Shown here: positions 18,836 through 26,204 of the stretch, piece after piece | Position numbering within the stretch: the stretch's first letter is position 1 | How the letters are laid out: every line of letters begins with the position of its first letter | Assembly: GCF_026410305.1 (NCBI RefSeq) | Contig: NZ_JAPMLQ010000001.1 | Span: 124,001 to 188,000, forward strand | Direction of reading: 5' to 3' | From: Sulfitobacter sp. F26204 | GTDB lineage: Bacteria > Pseudomonadota > Alphaproteobacteria > Rhodobacterales > Rhodobacteraceae | DNA length: 64,000 nt | The notes under the pieces: generated by a model | What the model saw: only the letters and a program-made list of their open reading frames with translations | Told to the model about the DNA's origin: nothing | Database searches by the model: none | Position numbers and translations under genes: made by a program

Positions 18836-20110
18836 TTATCCGTTCTGACGCAAAACGGCACCAGCCAGATAAAGCGACCCGCAAATCAGTATCTTGGCCA
18901 GTGGATCCACCTTGATGATGCTGCGCAGGGCAGTCTCGACACTGTCTGCTTCCGTTGCTGCAATGCCCACGGCACGCGCCGCTTGGGCAGTTTCTGCCGC
19001 GGACAAGGTCGCCGCCTCACCCGGAATCGAAACCGCTTGCAGGCTTTGCACATGCTCGGCAAGAGGGCGCATATACCCTGTGATGTCCTTGGTGTTCAGC
19101 ATGCCGCAAATCAAATGCGTCGGGCGCGCGCCACCCTGTGCCAATACCGCCGCCAGGGCCTGCCCCGCCGCCGCATTATGTCCGCCATCAAGCCAAAGTT
19201 CGGCAGTACCTGCAATCTCTATCAATGGGCCAGTTCGCAATCTCTGCATCCGCGCGGGCCACTGGGCGGTGGTGACAGCTGCCTCGCAGGCTTTCGCATC
19301 CATACCGAACAACCGTAGCGCCGCCAACGCAGCACCGGCATTTTGTACCTGATGTGCCCCCAGCAGATTAGGCAACGGCAGATCCAGCAGTCCATGATCG
19401 TCCTGATAGACCATGCGTTCCCCTTCAATCCCGACGTGCCAATGCTGCCCATAGACCATCAGCGGCGCGCCCTTTTTTGCCGCCACCGCCTCGATTACCT
19501 CAAGCGCTTCGTCCTGTTGCGGGCCAACGACGCAGGGCACATTGCGCTTGATGATCCCGGCCTTTTCGCCTGCGATTTCGGCCAATGTTTCCCCTAGATA
19601 TTGCTGGTGATCCAGCGATACAGGGGTGATGATGCTCAGCGTCACTTTGTCGGTGACATTCGTCGCGTCCAGCCGCCCGCCCAGGCCGACCTCAAGCAAG
19701 GTGAAATCTGCTGGCATGCGGGCAAAAGCCAACAAGGCGGCTGCGGTAGTGATTTCGAAATAGGTGATCATCTGGTCCGCGTTGACCGCGTAACATTCAT
19801 CCAGAACAGCCGCCAGCGCCTCTTCATCGATCAAGGTACCCGCCAGCCGAATGCGTTCATGAAACCGTGCCAGGTGCGGTGAGGTATAGGCGTGCACCGT
19901 TTTTCCCGCCGCCTCAAGGCCCGCACGGATCATCGCCTGGGTTGACCCCTTGCCATTGGTACCCGCAAGATGGACGATCGGCGGCAGGCGCTCTTGCGGA
20001 TTGTCCAGCGCCGCAAGCAACCTGAACATCCGATCCAAGGTCAGATCCATCACCTTGGGGTGCAAGGCCATCATCCGTTCCAGAATGACATCCGAGGTTT
20101 GTGCGTTCAT
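18836..20110 (-). CDS. folC: Bifunctional folylpolyglutamate synthase / dihydrofolate synthase
   Basis: Adds glutamate to dihydropteroate and to folates; cytosolic Mur-ligase-like enzyme. The P-loop is GTNGKGST (50-57), the DHF-binding stretch [15 protein letters not shown] follows, and later [14 protein letters not shown] and [22 protein letters not shown] are diagnostic. The length of 424 residues is normal. Its start overlaps the accD stop by 4 nt, the common alphaproteobacterial accD-folC order. Confidence 0.97.
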
Positions 20111-21054
20111 TTAGATTTGCTGCCCTGATCCACGGCCGTTTCGGTCAATGCATTGTCCAGTTCACCGCCCTTGTCAGGGGGCGGCAGATCCCCGCGCACA
20201 GCAGGCGGCAAGCCAAGCAACATACGCGTGATACTGATCAGTTCATCACGCAAGGCGGTGCGGTGTGTAACACGGTCCAGCATGCCGTGATCCAGCAAAT
20301 ACTCCGCCCGCTGAAAGCCATCGGGCAGTTTTTCACGGATGGTCTGTTCGATCACCCGTGGTCCGGCGAAGCAGATCAGCGCGTTAGGTTCGGCGATATG
20401 AACATCACCCAGCATCGCATAGCTTGCCGTCACACCACCGGTAGTCGGATGGGTCAGCACCACGATATAGGGCAGCCCCGCCTCCTTTAGCATTTGCACC
20501 GCGACCGTCGTGCGCGGCATCTGCATAAGGGACAAGATCCCTTCTTGCATCCGCGCCCCGCCAGCCGCCGAAAACAGGATCAGCGGGCGCTTCAGCTTTA
20601 CGGCTTCTTCTGCCGCTGCAACAATAGCATTGCCGACATACATCCCCATGGATCCCGCCATAAACGAAAAATCCTGACAGGCCGCGACAATCGGTGTGCG
20701 CCCCATCTCGCCCGTGGCGACCAACATGGCCTCGGCCTCTCCGGTTTCCTTTTGGGCCGCTTTCAAACGGTCCGGGTATTTTTTCTGATCTCGAAAATGC
20801 AGCGGATCAGGCGTCGGTGATGGCACCTCGACCTCGACAAAAACGCCCCCATCAAAAAGCGCGGTCAACCGTTCACGCGGACTGATCTGCATGTGATGGT
20901 CGCAGTTCGTACAGACGTTCAGGTTGTCCGAGACTTCGCGGTGAAACAGCATGGTGCCGCAATCATCACATTTGGTCCACAGATTGTCTGGCGTCTCGCG
21001 CCGAGAAAAGATCGAGTTGATCCGAGGACGGACATAGTTGTTGATCCAGTTCAT
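20107..21054 (-). CDS. accD: Acetyl-CoA carboxylase carboxyltransferase subunit beta
   Basis: With AccA transfers the carboxyl group from biotin to acetyl-CoA, the committed step of fatty acid synthesis. The N-terminal zinc ribbon has Cys29, Cys32, Cys48 and Cys51. Crotonase-fold motifs include [27 protein letters not shown] and [18 protein letters not shown]. 315 residues, with a Gly/Pro-rich C-terminal tail. Translationally coupled to folC. The ABC-like gene lies 142 nt upstream on the same strand, separated by a hairpin. Confidence 0.97.
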
Positions 21055-21196: not shown

Positions 21197-24100
21197 TTAT
21201 TTTTCGGCGTCATCCGGTTTGTCCGTCGGCGAGGGCAATGGCGTGTCGCGGGGCACATCGATCCCTTGGGTAATCAGAATATCCGCTACCCCCGTCAAAT
21301 AACCAGCGACGGTCCGCAGCAAGCTCAGCAAAACCACCTTGTCGCTTTCAATCACTGATCTGAACTGCTCTGCCCCGATGCGCAGGAATCTGGTCTCCTC
21401 GACGGCAGTCAGGTCCAACTGGCGCGGCTCGTCCAGAATGATCGAAAGATCACCAATCAACCGTCCTGGCACCACATCTGAAACATGGCGAAACACGCCA
21501 TCCTCGCCGGTATTTCCCAGTACCGCCTGCCCCGATAGACACAGATATGCAGCATCCGGGCGCTCCGCGGCCGAAAAGATCCGCTGCCCCGCCTCGGCGG
21601 TGTACCATTGCGCTGCAAATGCCAGCAACCGCTGACTGCGCCGGTCCAGGGAGGCGAACAATTCGTTTTCTGAGATAATCTGTAGTTTGCGGCGCAGATC
21701 GTTAGAGGCCGGATCTTCGTATTCGAATTGATCCGAGGTCTCGACCCCGTTGATCTGTCCGTTCTTGATCTCAACATGCAGGTCGAAATCCTGCGGTGCC
21801 GCAAATGTGTCGTTGATATAGATCTGTGTTGTTTGAGGCAGCAACTCACTCAGCTGATTGCGCACCTGCGCCTGTGCCTTTACGTCCTTACCGACAAGCA
21901 ATTGGTTCAGAACCAATACATCCGGACGTTTGATCGCCGCACGCCCAAAGGCGGCACGTTGTTGAAATGCCGCTGGCAGATTTGTGCCACCGATGGCAGT
22001 GGGGACATCAAACAGGTTCTGCGACACCTGTTGTTTCAGATCGTGTTTTTCCAACACCTGCGTCACCACGTCCCGCACCAGATCGGCTTGAAGACCGGCC
22101 ATGGCAGAAATACGTCCATAAAGCAGGTTTTCCAGCACCGTCGCCCGCGGCATATAGGTCTCTGGTTCGATCGCGATGAACAAATCCTTTGCCTGTTCGC
22201 GCAAACGCGCCCCATTGGTTTTGCGAACATGCAGGATTTCCTGTTTGAAGCTCTCCGGAAAGGACGGGCCGATCTGTTCGGCCGTCAGGGCAAAAGGCAC
22301 CGTCAACAGCAGCGCGAATTCACGCGAAGACAGCGCATGATCACCCCGTTCGCGGCGACGCTGCGCAATATCGACCAATTGTTCATAAAGCGATTCATCA
22401 ATACCCAAGGCTGTGAACAGCGGATGGTCTGTGCCGTCCAGACCAAATGTCCGGTGCAGCGTTTCCACCAGGGTCTGGGATATACCGATGCCCTGTTCGG
22501 CCAGACCCTGATCCATGACCATGGCCAGAAAACCACCTTCGGCCACCAGCTCTTCCTGAGTGATGGCGTATCTTGGGGCGGCAAACATCAGGTTGCCTCC
22601 CAAAGGAACAGCCGGATTGAACAACGCGGGATCAAAACGGTAAACCACCTTGTCCAGCCCTTCGGCCACCAACTGTTTGTGCACTTCATCGCGCAAACCG
22701 ACAATGCGGCGGGCCAGCTCTGGATGGTTTTCGGGCACCATTATCGCATCCAGCATGCGGTCGAATATCGTATCAGCGGTGCCAAGCGCCTGTGTGATCT
22801 CATACCAAAAGGCCATGACCTCTTCCTTGGTGCTCAGATCGGCGATTGCCGGGTCCAGCCAATCAGCGCGGGTGCTGTCGGGACTATTGCCGCTGCGTTG
22901 CGCCTCGATTGAAAAACGGTCCTTGTGGTTGGGGTCCCACAACACGGTTTTCGGGCTGGTGCGCAACGGCATCAACAGGTTGCTGCCAACATCTCCTTGA
23001 AACAGATAGGGCTGCGACTGCGCGTATCCGATCCGCGCCGCGACCACCGCCTGATGCAGACCGGCAAGGTCATGACCCGCCATCGTGACATGGCCCCGCG
23101 TCGGATTGATCTCACGGGTCAGGACTTCTGACAGGGCGGTGCGTTCTGACTGGTTGTTGACCTGCAACGCGACATGACTGCCCACGGGTATGGTCAGTGA
23201 AATGTCGCGCAACACCATGTCACCACCACCATTGCGCACCGAAACATTGGATAATTCTATGTCACCGCGCAGATGCGGCGCAGTTTCGGGCGCATCGTCA
23301 AACAACTTTTGATCGATCATATTGATCGGGTCGAACCGTTCGATCACCACGTCCCAGCGCAACGCCATATCCTGGGTCTGGTTGTAATAGACCAGCAGTT
23401 CCTTCCACGGGCTGGACAGGTCCTTGTATGCCGCCAGGGCAGCAACCAGCGCACCAACGGTAATATCTCCCTTGATCGCCAGGTATCCACCAACGGAGTA
23501 AAAGAAAAACGGGGTCATTTGGGTGATGAAGTTGTTGATGAACTTCATAAAGAACTTTTTTTGATAGATTCGAAAGCGCACCTCGAACAGCCGTCCCAAA
23601 CGATCCGTAAACGCCGCCTGACGGTATCGCCAGCCGCCATTGGTGCGCAGATCGGTGATCCCAGCCGCCGTTTCGCCGATCTCAGACGCAAAATGGCGCA
23701 CTTCCTTGATGCGTTCCTTGTTCAACAGGTTGATCTGGCGTTGCAACATCGGGATCAACCAGGCTTGCAACGGAATCAGCGCCACACCCGCCAGCCCGAA
23801 CCACGGGCTTTGCAAAAACAGGAAAAACACGATGATCAGCATCTGACCGGCCTGAAACACCGGTTGCGCCACAGCGTCACCCATCAGTCCCCCCATCGGC
23901 TCTGCCTCGGACGTGACCATCGACACCAATTCCCCCTGACTGGTGTTCTGGAAATAACTGCGCGGAAACCGCATCATCCGGCTAACCAATTGGTAGCGAA
24001 ACCGGCGCAACATGCGTTCGGCAACCACACCTTTCAAGGTGTTCAGCCGCATCTTGAGCAGCCCATGCACCAATACCGCCCCGAGATAGCCAAAACAGAG

Positions 24101-24304
24101 CGTCAGCAGGAATTGGACCTGCGTGAACTCCATGCCCAGGACATCGACCACATCGCTTTCGGATCCGATGGCATCGTTGATGATCCGCTTGGGCAGTTCC
24201 AGAGTGGCATAGAGGAATGGAAAGGTGACAAGGGTGAACGCCAGCAGGATCATCTGTTCGCGGCGTGAATACTTCCAGATGAAGGAAAAGATGCTGGGTT
24301 CCAT
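21197..24304 (-). CDS. ABC-exporter-like protein with degenerate ATPase domain, long insert and cyclic-nucleotide-binding-like domain
   Basis: 1035 residues. Residues 1-320 are an ABC exporter membrane domain (type I fold; YFQNTSQGELVSMVTSEAEP is typical). The nucleotide-binding domain starts near 348 (IELSNVSV, VLRDISLTIPVG) but each ATP motif is changed: Walker A reads VNNQSERTAL (381-390) with no GKS/T, the signature reads GGTNLPAAFQQR (772-783) instead of LSGGQ, Walker B ends LVLNQ (797-801) instead of DE, and the switch-histidine position is YINDTF. An insert of about 280 residues (440-720), charged and helical, splits the domain. Residues 880-1000 resemble a CRP-type cNMP-binding domain (ERPDAAYLCLSGQAVL, GRLIGDLSIILDEPRQ). 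One half-transporter gene is expected to dimerise; ATP hydrolysis is unlikely. Function unknown. Confidence 0.85.
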   Translation of the reverse strand: MEPSIFSFIWKYSRREQMILLAFTLVTFPFLYATLELPKRIINDAIGSESDVVDVLGMEFTQVQFLLTLCFGYLGAVLVHGLLKMRLNTLKGVVAERMLRRFRYQLVSRMMRFPRSYFQNTSQGELVSMVTSEAEPMGGLMGDAVAQPVFQAGQMLIIVFFLFLQSPWFGLAGVALIPLQAWLIPMLQRQINLLNKERIKEVRHFASEIGETAAGITDLRTNGGWRYRQAAFTDRLGRLFEVRFRIYQKKFFMKFINNFITQMTPFFFYSVGGYLAIKGDITVGALVAALAAYKDLSSPWKELLVYYNQTQDMALRWDVVIERFDPINMIDQKLFDDAPETAPHLRGDIELSNVSVRNGGGDMVLRDISLTIPVGSHVALQVNNQSERTALSEVLTREINPTRGHVTMAGHDLAGLHQAVVAARIGYAQSQPYLFQGDVGSNLLMPLRTSPKTVLWDPNHKDRFSIEAQRSGNSPDSTRADWLDPAIADLSTKEEVMAFWYEITQALGTADTIFDRMLDAIMVPENHPELARRIVGLRDEVHKQLVAEGLDKVVYRFDPALFNPAVPLGGNLMFAAPRYAITQEELVAEGGFLAMVMDQGLAEQGIGISQTLVETLHRTFGLDGTDHPLFTALGIDESLYEQLVDIAQRRRERGDHALSSREFALLLTVPFALTAEQIGPSFPESFKQEILHVRKTNGARLREQAKDLFIAIEPETYMPRATVLENLLYGRISAMAGLQADLVRDVVTQVLEKHDLKQQVSQNLFDVPTAIGGTNLPAAFQQRAAFGRAAIKRPDVLVLNQLLVGKDVKAQAQVRNQLSELLPQTTQIYINDTFAAPQDFDLHVEIKNGQINGVETSDQFEYEDPASNDLRRKLQIISENELFASLDRRSQRLLAFAAQWYTAEAGQRIFSAAERPDAAYLCLSGQAVLGNTGEDGVFRHVSDVVPGRLIGDLSIILDEPRQLDLTAVEETRFLRIGAEQFRSVIESDKVVLLSLLRTVAGYLTGVADILITQGIDVPRDTPLPSPTDKPDDAEK

Positions 24305-24437: not shown

Positions 24438-26204
24438 ATGTCCAGCAACCAGCGTTTTGATAAAACCAGACTGCCCAGCCGTCATGTGACCGAAGGGCCA
24501 GCGCGTGCACCGCATCGGTCCTATTATTACGCGATGGGCATGACAGAAGAAGAGATTCACCAGCCGCTGGTCGGCGTCGCTACTTGCTGGAATGAAGCCG
24601 CACCATGCAATATCGCACTGTCGCGTCAGGCCCAGGCAGTCAAGGCCGGCGTCAAGGACGAACAGGGCACACCGCGCGAATTCACCACCATTACCGTCAC
24701 TGACGGGATCGCTATGGGCCATGAAGGCATGCGTTCGTCACTCGCATCACGCGATGCCATTGCCGATACTGTTGAGCTGACCATGCGCGGGCATTGCTAT
24801 GACGCGCTTGTCGGCTTGGCAGGATGCGACAAATCCCTTCCCGGCATGATGATGGCAATGCTGCGCCTGAACACGCCTTCGGTTTTTCTTTACGGTGGAT
24901 CGATCTTGCCCGGCAAAGCGCCTAAAGGTGCGGATGTACCGCAAAGTTTCGCGGAACGTGACCTGACGGTTCAGGACATGTTCGAGGCCGTCGGCAACTA
25001 TCAGTCCGGCACCATGACCGAAGCGGAACTCGAAATTCTTGAACGTGTTGCCTGCCCTTCAGCGGGGGCCTGTGGTGGTCAGTTCACGGCCAATACCATG
25101 GCCTGTGTCTCTGAAGCGATTGGCCTCGCCTTGCCCAACTCCTCAGGCATGCCCGCGCCGTACAAGGATCGCGACGAATATGGCCGCGCTTCCGGTGCCG
25201 CTGTCATGAACCTGATCGAAAAGAACATCCGTGCCCGCGACATCTGTACCCGCGAAGCCTTTGAAAACGCGGCGCGCATCGTGGCCTGCACCGGCGGGTC
25301 CACCAACGCGGGTCTGCACCTGCCCGCCATGGCGCATGAAGCCGGCATCGAGTTCTTCCTTGAAGATGTCTGCGCAATCTTCCGCGACACGCCGCACTTT
25401 GTCGATATGAAACCGGGCGGTGCCTATGTCGCCAAAGACCTGTACGACGCGGGCGGTGTGCCGGTTGTAATGAACGAGTTGCGCAAGGCTGGTCTGATCC
25501 ATACCGACTGTATGACGGCCACCGGCTATTCCATCGGTGAGGAACTGGACAAGATCACCCGCGAGGCCGACGGCAAGGTCATCCACGCCATCGACAACCC
25601 GATCAGCAAAACCGGCGGCGTTGTCGGGCTCAAAGGGAACCTTGCCCCGGAAGGGGCCATCGTGAAAATCGCGGGCATGTCCGAAGATGACATTGTCTTT
25701 ACCGGCCCTGCACTGATATTTGAATGTGAACAGGATGCCTTTGAAGCGGTGCAAAACCGCACCTATTCCGAAGGCGACGTCTTTGTGATCCGCAACGAAG
25801 GTCCGCGTGGTGGGCCCGGCATGCGCGAAATGCTGGCGACAACCGCCGCACTCTCCGGTCAAGGCATGGGCAAAAAAGTAGCGCTCATCACGGACGGTCG
25901 TTTCTCCGGTGCGACCCGTGGTTTCTGTGTCGGTCACGTCGGCCCCGAAGCGGCACTAGGCGGCCCGATCGGCCTTCTCCAGAATGGCGACATGATCACC
26001 CTGAATGCCATCGAAGGGAGCATCACCGTAGACTTGACGGACGAGGAACTGGCCGCCCGCAAGGCAAAGTGGACCGGCCCGCGTCCCACAAACTATGCCT
26101 CTGGTGCCCTGTGGAAATATGCGCAACTGGTCGGCCCAACCTATCTGGGTGCGGTCACACATCCCGGCGCTGCGGCAGAAACCCATGATTACATGGAACT
26201 ATAA
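24438..26204 (+). CDS. ilvD: Dihydroxy-acid dehydratase
   Basis: Dehydrates 2,3-dihydroxy-isovalerate and 2,3-dihydroxy-3-methylvalerate in valine/isoleucine synthesis; iron-sulfur enzyme. The 588 residues carry the cluster cysteines in WNEAAPCN (Cys57), GCDKSLPG (Cys130) and [15 protein letters not shown] (Cys211), and the C-terminal motif [16 protein letters not shown]. The ATG follows GAGGGAGCCATCAG. Its last 20 nt overlap the following lipoprotein gene. It is divergent from the ABC-like gene. Confidence 0.97.

Follow-up and report, generated by a model that had tools for sequence, protein, structure and literature searches.

ATP hydrolysis is the defining activity of ABC transporters, and their fold also serves non-pumping roles in CFTR and SUR, both of which bind ATP. 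Degenerate ATP sites are common in heterodimeric exporters, every motif of site 1 is changed in Pdr5, and ABCG5/G8 carries, like the protein described here, a Lys to Arg replacement (available text of PMC7756269). Here, we describe an exporter-type protein with a degenerate ATP site, encoded in the window (the whole 64,000-nucleotide stretch of Sulfitobacter sp. F26204 DNA that was analysed). We assign a probability of about one half to the reading that this pseudo-ABC exporter acts, without ATP hydrolysis, in an envelope-glycan system conserved among Alphaproteobacteria, as a component under cyclic-nucleotide control.

The pseudo-ABC gene (21197..24304, on the minus strand, as are all the features of the protein given below) is an intact ORF of 1035 aa. 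It starts with an ABC-exporter-type membrane domain (residues 1-330, 23315..24304), recognised by Pfam ABC_membrane (PF00664, residues 54-290, E 3.8e-22) and by structure match. Alignment A1 (27 rows) has 40 invariant columns, 31 of them in this domain. Among named NCBIfam models, the nearest is MsbA (TIGR02203, E 2.6e-40 for the window protein and 1.2e-55 for the relative L176), both matches falling far below the model's cut-off. The N-lobe of the nucleotide-binding domain (NBD) follows, with the Walker A and Q-loop region (residues 345-445, 22970..23272), and is supported by Pfam, the AF2 model and structure match, the Pfam ABC_tran match being confined to residues 365-459 (E 1.9e-5) and scoring 25.7 bits, with the cut-off at 25. 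The AF2 model has a mean pLDDT of 81.7, with residues 341-850 mostly at 80-95, and the modelled NBD (343-855) aligns over 222 residues with that of ComA (3vx4; Z 23.3, rmsd 2.6 A) and over 227 residues with that of TAP1 (4k8o; Z 22.4, rmsd 2.7 A). SUR2 also appears in the VIA structure-match list of the model. A preliminary description of this gene had called the membrane domain intact; it is indeed recognisable, but residues 134-145 and most of 298-319 are modelled with a pLDDT below 50. The same description had placed some 280 extra residues inside the ATPase fold and a cNMP-binding-like domain after it, and both are borne out: the insert comprises about 277 residues, with the NBD fold whole around it in the model, and the C-terminal domain matches Pfam cNMP_binding (PF00027) at residues 904-988 (E 2.3e-12).

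The insert lies inside the helical subdomain of the NBD (residues 446-722, 22139..22969). No Pfam family matched it at E values of 1 or below, a PDB sequence search gave best values of only E 0.49 and 1.4, and a Foldseek search of the PDB with a separate model of residues 440-728 gave a best E of 0.9. A first internal repeat, detected by hhalign, spans residues ~523-579 (22568..22738) and comprises a helix, a strand, FDPxxFNP and an ENLLF-like motif, and a second copy, supported by hhalign and secondary structure, spans residues ~680-734 (22103..22267) and continues into the normal C-part of the NBD. The two copies matched each other by hhalign at 98.9%, with 30 control comparisons at or below 1.8%. 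Part of the insert thus consists of repeats related to the NBD's own helical segment. An equivalence of the insert copies with the true signature and Walker B region was unsupported by sequence (hhalign 0.2 and 0.5%). The order of a helix plus a strand is similar in the two.

Only 1 of the 12 canonical ATP-site residues is retained in the window protein, T389, which occupies the Ser/Thr position of Walker A, in line with the preliminary description of altered Walker A, signature, Walker B and switch His motifs. The degenerate Walker A (residues 378-395, VALQVNNQSERTALSEVL, 23120..23173) reads VNNQSERT, with Arg at the Lys388 position, and the Q-loop residue is S430. The degenerate signature and Walker B, located by alignment columns (residues 771-805, 21890..21994), read NLPAAF, with LPAAF where LSGGQ is expected, and N800-Q801, and D832 takes the His position of the H-loop (residues 826-841, 21782..21829). 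A pattern scan for GxxxxGK[ST] across the whole protein found none, leaving no functional P-loop of this pattern elsewhere. Three ABC exporters from the same genome scored 12/12 in these columns; they were chosen by Walker A and LSGG[QE], three of four loci being used and L007, without LSGG[QE], omitted, so this control tests the alignment and not motif frequency. The degenerate motifs are themselves conserved in the roseobacter clade, aligned with one short ORF and identical sequences omitted: the Lys of Walker A and the catalytic Glu of Walker B are absent from all 104 members, position 388 is Arg in 95/104, E387 is kept in 90/104 and A390 in 102/104. Asp at 800 is retained in 75/104 members, though it is Asn in the window protein. 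Judged from these alignments, the loss of the ATP site in the clade is old and conserved, and the window protein is predicted to lack ATPase activity.

By contrast with the ATP site, the C-terminal domain (residues ~880-1005, 21290..21667) keeps its predicted cyclic-nucleotide pocket. The Gly, acid and Arg of the phosphate-binding cassette are the key pocket residues of cNMP domains, and they lie here at G951, D952 and R961 (cassette residues 947-967, 21404..21466). Among rows from ORFs longer than 700 aa, one of which (L122) is a different cNMP-containing protein, G951, D/E952 and R961 are each conserved in 113/113. The acid is Asp in 96/113 rows instead of the usual Glu, which counts against the cyclic-nucleotide reading. 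In many relatives, the cNMP protein is a separate gene next door, and the shorter cNMP ORFs of the same loci have Glu in 55/59 and Arg in 58/59. The putative ligand would probably be cAMP.

What glycan system might such a protein serve? Of 289 alphaproteobacterial genomes sampled, 96 gave a match to the family, and the distribution of the family follows that of a MurG-like glycosyltransferase: 90 genomes have both, 6 the protein only, 3 the enzyme only and 190 neither (phi 0.93). A control gene, LamB/YcsF, was present in 39 of the 96 genomes that carry the protein (phi 0.35) and also co-occurred above chance (odds ratio 5.6); values of this kind therefore include a contribution from genome size or kinship. 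Within the window's family, the enzyme is present in all 31 genomes that have the protein, and it occurs without the protein in 9 of 40 genomes, 4 of which gave weak matches. The start-to-start distance between protein and enzyme is below 6 kb in 63/90 genomes, adjacency being counted on contigs, with fragmented assemblies scored as not adjacent. We conclude that the family is tied near-obligately, and often as a neighbour, to a conserved glycosyltransferase operon. The window gene itself is not adjacent to this operon, which counts against the link: seven operon genes lie on contig C22, away from the contig of the window gene, which adjoins accD-folC, so that here the operon is linked by profile and paralogy. 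In 8 genomes of the window's family, 20-41 kb separate a second paralogue from the enzyme, and the remaining 20 of the 28 places tested are farther away or on other contigs.

Locus tags guessed from the gene order of pSymB led to a locus that allows comparison with published work. Gene order suggests that the rhizobial counterpart cluster is probably the PPP surface-polysaccharide locus of Sinorhizobium, an identity obtained by counting genes back from SM_b21272, the pseudo-ABC gene not being named in the available text of the paper. That text places the S. meliloti PPP (phazolicin-protecting polysaccharide) locus at smb21252-smb21271, reports that glycosyltransferase mutants smb21252 and smb21265 drop from a phazolicin MIC of 1.47 to 0.18 ug/ml, lists the adenylate cyclase gene cyaA as depleted in the phazolicin screen, and cites cAMP as a reported regulator of genes potentially involved in PPP (PMC10128002). 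In the parts available of the Clr regulon paper, the cAMP-controlled polysaccharide cluster is nodP2-smb21248, outside smb21252-smb21271, a placement that counts against the proposed reading, and the main text there has no SMb2125x, SMb2126x or SMb2127x tags (PMC5498481). By gene order, the PPP locus would share with the window genome an orthologous MurG-like glycosyltransferase, 45% identical to that of the window genome, and would hold a GT4 and a second MurG-like enzyme, a pseudo-ABC protein with 30% identity to the window protein, and a cNMP protein, there encoded by a separate gene, in contrast to the fused roseobacter gene, which has moved away from the operon. The pseudo-ABC gene is split by a frameshift in the deposited sequence of S. 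meliloti 1021, the strain of PMC10128002, which counts against the proposed reading; it is intact in strains 2011, ml46 and RMO17. The text seen of a pSymB reduction study mentions msbA2, another exporter (PMC12239276), that of PMC10130141 has nothing on the pseudo-ABC gene, and our literature searches returned no paper on this protein or family among the matches listed. The family is a likely source of a component for a surface polysaccharide, itself uncharacterised, that confers protection from an antimicrobial peptide, and it points to a direct, non-transcriptional route of cyclic-nucleotide control over envelope glycans.

In the mechanism that we propose, the protein would dimerise, presumably as a homodimer or with a paralogue, and the C-terminal domain would bind a cyclic nucleotide, probably cAMP. 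Binding would shift the body formed by the NBD and the insert, and this shift, replacing ATP, would set the state of the membrane domain, which may in turn dock or gate the glycosyltransferases of the cytoplasm and the step in which their product is passed on at the membrane. The preliminary description had proposed a cyclic-nucleotide-controlled membrane sensor, scaffold or channel; the conserved motif loss and the kept pocket support part of this view, and these three roles themselves are hypothetical. The graded series in distant relatives, the insert repeats, the separate cNMP genes and the tie to the glycosyltransferase operon go beyond that description. The TMD-only paralogue L003, tried as a partner, sits among copper genes and therefore looks like another function. 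A bolder version, tentative and in our estimate rather unlikely, makes these proteins an ABC-exporter-fold class in which a cyclic-nucleotide signal has replaced ATP: the fused cNMP domain would drive or gate glycolipid movement, no ATP would be bound or hydrolysed, and additional copies of part of the NBD's helical segment would have remodelled that domain.

Among the alternatives, the one that survives best, a possibility well short of even odds, is that the protein is still a translocator, an ATP-independent, cyclic-nucleotide-gated flippase, scramblase or channel for the operon's glycolipid or glycan. The concentration of invariant columns in the membrane domain and the proximity to MsbA, even far below cut-off, are consistent with transport, and no dedicated glycan exporter was recognised among the neighbouring genes examined. 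However, a glycolipid can move downhill only towards a sink, and none was identified; the low-confidence parts of the membrane model also weigh against it.

It is less likely that the protein is an exporter with its ATPase in trans, for instance through pairing with another NBD, or with an unusual use of nucleotide such as binding without hydrolysis. Distant alphaproteobacterial relatives form a graded series that keeps 1-9 of the 12 residues, with the Walker A Lys and Walker B Glu together in 21/67 and Lys, Ser/Thr, Asp and Glu together in 3/67, so part of the site persists in some members, and degenerate sites in heterodimeric exporters offer a precedent. Yet these last three members lack LSGGQ and the H-loop His, none of the 104 roseobacter members has the Lys or Glu, both full-length members of the window's genome (the window protein and paralogue L002) are degenerate, and in the annotated clusters examined only importer-type ABC genes were recognised beside the family gene.

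Alternatively, the window paralogue could have left the glycan system to serve the accD-folC neighbourhood, in membrane lipid homeostasis, with an Rce1-like protease, which we regard as improbable. Downstream lie genes for an accD-like acetyl-CoA carboxylase carboxyltransferase beta (20107..21054, minus strand) and a folC-like protein of the Mur-ligase family (18836..20110, minus strand), and an ilvD-like dihydroxy-acid dehydratase gene is divergent (24438..26204, plus strand). This neighbourhood is conserved, with folC-like genes in 58, ilvD-like in 50 and Rce1-like membrane protein genes in 43 of 81 stretches, rough counts from crude gene calling and clustering, with a Pfam check on two of the 43 Rce1-like proteins, and in L038 the first possible start of the Rce1-like gene overlaps the pseudo-ABC stop by 4 bases. 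Against such a role, the window lacks the Rce1-like gene at the corresponding position, accD and the pseudo-ABC gene are 142 bases apart, and the glycosyltransferase accompanies the protein in every genome of the window's family that has it.

Relatives were collected from profile-matching ORFs, 171/227 of which were kept (model start <30, end >820, summed score >300, distinct sequence), a filter that excludes the partial second type of L223 and L224; thinning at 68% identity left 82 of the 171 for one alignment, and 60 and 56 of 80 related loci, each set with the window protein added, entered the structure alignments. Pattern-matching stretches among genome contigs encode a relative in 333/346 cases, and 79 of the 80 relatives kept matched from residue 1 to at least 1005. 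Whole-gene dN/dS (NG86, five pairs) is 0.08-0.15, a value of about 0.1 that argues against decay. A decaying transporter gene or annotation artefact, suggested by the loss of nearly all catalytic residues and by frameshifts in 3/7 Sinorhizobium records of the rhizobial counterpart, is thus very improbable for the roseobacter clade, and clade-wide loss, near-full-length relatives, purifying selection and conserved replacement residues rule out a single damaged copy, in line with the early view of a full-length gene that is not decaying. RefSeq names these sequences 'ABC transporter transmembrane domain-containing protein', 'ABC transporter ATP-binding protein' or 'cyclic nucleotide-binding domain-containing protein'; the label 'ATP-binding' is doubtful, and the labels leave the dead site unmentioned.

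Since the family is found near-always with one surface-sugar gene set and has lost its motor, it may show how a pump fold works without one, and its ATP sites, lost to differing degrees with selection kept, offer a natural series for such an exporter fold. The window protein has the membrane-domain and NBD folds of the Type IV (type I exporter) half-transporters MsbA, PCAT1, TmrAB and TAP, but, unlike them, it retains a single canonical ATP-site residue and carries a long insert and a C-terminal cNMP domain. As in TM287/288, TmrAB, Pdr5 and ABCG5/G8, degeneration is conserved and non-random; these exporters, however, keep one working site, whereas the genome of the window has two full-length members, both degenerate. 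Finally, CFTR and SUR bind ATP, whereas the roseobacter protein has no recognisable site for it.

The open reading frame of the pseudo-ABC protein is intact (21197-24304, minus strand, 1035 aa). Pfam assigns an ABC membrane region to residues 54-290, the first part only of an ABC nucleotide-binding domain (NBD) to residues 365-459, barely above cut-off, and a cNMP-binding domain to residues 904-988. The AlphaFold2 model, built from 61 sequences (the window protein and 60 related loci), had a mean pLDDT of 81.7 and a pTM of 0.68, with residues 341-850 mostly at pLDDT 80 to 95; parts of the membrane domain were modelled weakly. Whole-chain VIA-align matches of this model were ABC exporters, with Z up to 24 but large rmsd. 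The NBDs of ComA (Z 23.3, 2.6 A, 222 residues) and TAP1 (Z 22.4, 2.7 A, 227 residues) superposed on residues 343-855 and 334-854, respectively. Since these two NBDs align across residues 334-855, the predicted NBD fold is complete and encloses the extra residues.

The target keeps one of 12 ATP-site residues, Thr389; three exporters from the same genome, chosen by their motifs as a test of the 12 alignment columns, score 12/12. Across the 104 distinct rows of its roseobacter clade, 0-3 of these residues are retained, and neither the Walker A Lys nor the catalytic Glu occurs in any row. The Walker B Asp, absent from the target, is present in 75 of the 104. Replacement residues in the Walker A region are conserved in the clade (E387, 90/104; R388, 95/104; A390, 102/104), and K792 and P794 occur in all 104 rows. 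The 67 distant alphaproteobacterial rows score 1 to 9 of 12: Lys and Glu are both present in 21, and Lys, Ser/Thr, Asp and Glu in three, which are devoid of LSGGQ and of the H-loop His. The S. meliloti and R. johnstonii members have lost Lys and Glu, with replacements of their own (SGGGEA and FNQ, and SGAEA and FNR, respectively). Because these rhizobial replacements differ, and rows of similar pattern are found in the tree's other half, both residues were probably lost on at least two occasions. Among the distant rows, 54/67 have Asp/Glu in place of the Walker A Ser/Thr and 40/67 have Asn in place of the Walker B Asp, with both changes in 36/67; of the 6 rows with a Walker A Ser, 5 retain the Walker B Asp, versus 7 of the 54 with an acid. 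The two Mg ligands look exchanged in these rows, on counts uncorrected for kinship.

In a tree of 82 rows (midpoint root for drawing only, support below 80 on 23 of 79 inner branches), the roseobacter fused proteins group together with support of 95-100 and form two paralogue groups, the ATP site being degenerate in both. Three rows from the window's family (L036, L118, L119) are placed in the other half. Overall dN/dS was 0.08-0.15 (NG86, 5 pairs), with dS above 1. Homologues of 54-55% identity on two Moritella-labelled contigs (L110, L113) are possibly alphaproteobacterial contamination of those assemblies.

The insert (residues 446-722) matched no Pfam family, and a search of PDB sequences gave nothing better than E 0.49. 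Residues 440-728 were modelled separately with AF2 (pLDDT 85, 57 rows), and Foldseek of this model against PDB gave no match below E 0.9. In profile comparisons within the family, the segment 'LARxIxxxRxxV...FDPxxFNP...ENLLF' at ~523-579 is repeated at 680-734 (98.9%), and the helical 'ENLLFG...GL' segments following each copy match each other (98.2%). The segment right behind the Q-loop matches the repeats at 90.3% over just 19 columns and at 88.6% over 54, versus at most 1.8% in 30 control comparisons against slices of the membrane domain and the N-lobe. Because of these matches, the insert seems to consist in part of additional copies of the helical segment of the same NBD; the repeat copies did not match the true signature/Walker B segment (0.2-0.5%). 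A second protein type (L223 and L224, family f70) shares the insert and the NBD C-part, with an N-terminal part that the family profile does not match; by eye, its first module follows the Q-loop much as the helical segment of an ordinary NBD would.

In many alphaproteobacterial relatives, a protein of ~900 aa is followed by a separate cNMP-binding ORF of ~150 aa. Roseobacters have the domain fused, as do nine rows outside the clade. Among 113 rows of ORFs >700 aa, counting the target and one unrelated cNMP protein (L122), Gly951 and Arg961 are invariant, and position 952 carries Asp (96 rows) or Glu (17 rows). The 59 shorter cNMP ORFs from the same loci have this Glu in 55 and the Arg in 58. 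Since Gly951, Asp/Glu952 and Arg961 are kept in 113/113 rows, the predicted cyclic-nucleotide pocket, unlike the ATP site, is under constraint. Rhizobium sp. N621 and S. meliloti RCAM1115 have a gene for an adenylate/guanylate cyclase close to the cluster.

At the alphaproteobacterial loci examined, the pseudo-ABC gene is often beside, or divergent from, a conserved glycan operon encoding two MurG-like and two GT4 glycosyltransferases, a histidine phosphatase, a deacetylase-like protein and a PF12692 methyltransferase. The MurG-like PF04101 match is above cut-off in locus L176 and slightly below in the window's genome; the deacetylase-like label was assigned by eye (no Pfam family for the L176 copy; DUF2334, E 0.018, for that of L249, in the window's genome). 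Among 289 genomes of the class, 96 have the pseudo-ABC protein (E<=1e-30), 93 have the first MurG-like enzyme (E<=1e-50) and 90 have both, covering 48 families; their starts lie within 6 kb in 63 of the 90, farther apart on the same contig in 7 and on different contigs in 20. The control gene LamB/YcsF was present in 39 of the 96, giving a phi of 0.35 and an odds ratio of 5.6, versus 0.93 and 950 for the MurG-like enzyme. The pseudo-ABC protein is present in 31 of the 149 genomes of the window's family, all of them with the enzyme, and 9 more have the enzyme alone, four by weak matches.

In the window's genome the operon is on contig C22, where an MscS-type mechanosensitive channel gene (L250:707-3172), divergent to it, occupies the place often held by the pseudo-ABC gene in other Alphaproteobacteria. 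The second paralogue lies 20-41 kb from the MurG-like enzyme in 8 genomes of the family. The window-type paralogue is flanked by ilvD-like and accD-like genes, with an Rce1-like membrane protein gene between it and accD in many relatives; this gene is absent from that position in the window. Comparison of six loci (L249 and L250 on C22, L251, L252, L253, L254) placed an oligopeptide-type ABC importer set, its binding protein weakly Opp4A-like, near the operon in Rhizobium, Sinorhizobium and the window's genome, and adjoining the pseudo-ABC gene in Azospirillum. The binding protein from the window's genome is 44% identical to its counterpart beside the S. meliloti cluster. Relatives of ~400-470 aa with the membrane domain and no NBD (L003/L124, own genome C1:26364-27290, its ABC_membrane match below cut-off; L125, L126, L235, L236; L255, Phaeobacter plasmid pP30_b) adjoin copper genes such as those for cupredoxin-like proteins, and for L255 also a copper oxidase and TolC; those of ~340 aa in other loci had no consistent neighbours.

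The cluster on pSymB of S. meliloti runs MurG-like, GT4, MurG-like, methyltransferase, pseudo-ABC, cNMP protein, FkbM methyltransferase and LacI regulator. Counting back from the LacI regulator, SM_b21272 in the portion available of PMC11387232, we infer that the first MurG-like gene is smb21265, mapping the cluster to the phazolicin-protecting polysaccharide (PPP) locus. The accessible part of PMC10128002 assigns smb21265 to PPP biosynthesis as a 'glycosyltransferase family protein', states that an uncharacterised surface polysaccharide protecting against phazolicin requires nine genes in the range smb21252 to smb21271, and names cAMP as a reported regulator of genes potentially involved in PPP; the pseudo-ABC gene was not found named in this part. 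Seven of the nine genes are up-regulated upon Myxococcus attack (PMC10315480, in part), and the cAMP-controlled cluster of the Clr paper ends at smb21248 (PMC5498481, in part). Of 7 Sinorhizobium pSymB-type records, 3 (1021, ml56, RCAM1115; L252, L256, L257) have a frameshift that splits the pseudo-ABC gene, and 4 (2011, ml46, RMO17 and S. medicae WSM419; L258, L259, L260, L261) have it intact; sequencing error, strain decay and switching are candidate causes.

Since neither full-length paralogue has an ATP site, the state of the membrane domain would be set by something other than ATP, and the cNMP domain, the sole conserved ligand pocket pointed to, would be the switch. The most economical reading is that the target is a cyclic-nucleotide-switched membrane component of a glycan machine, and we give a probability of about 0.5 to its docking and regulating the glycosyltransferases. 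That it instead lets their lipid-linked product equilibrate seems rather unlikely. In the literature searched, we have seen no precedent that combines an entire ATP site lost throughout a clade in both full-length paralogues, an NBD to whose enlargement self-repeats contribute, and a cNMP pocket under constraint. Asymmetric ABC pairs, in which a degenerate site makes up one half, are well known (PMC7756269, as far as its text was available).
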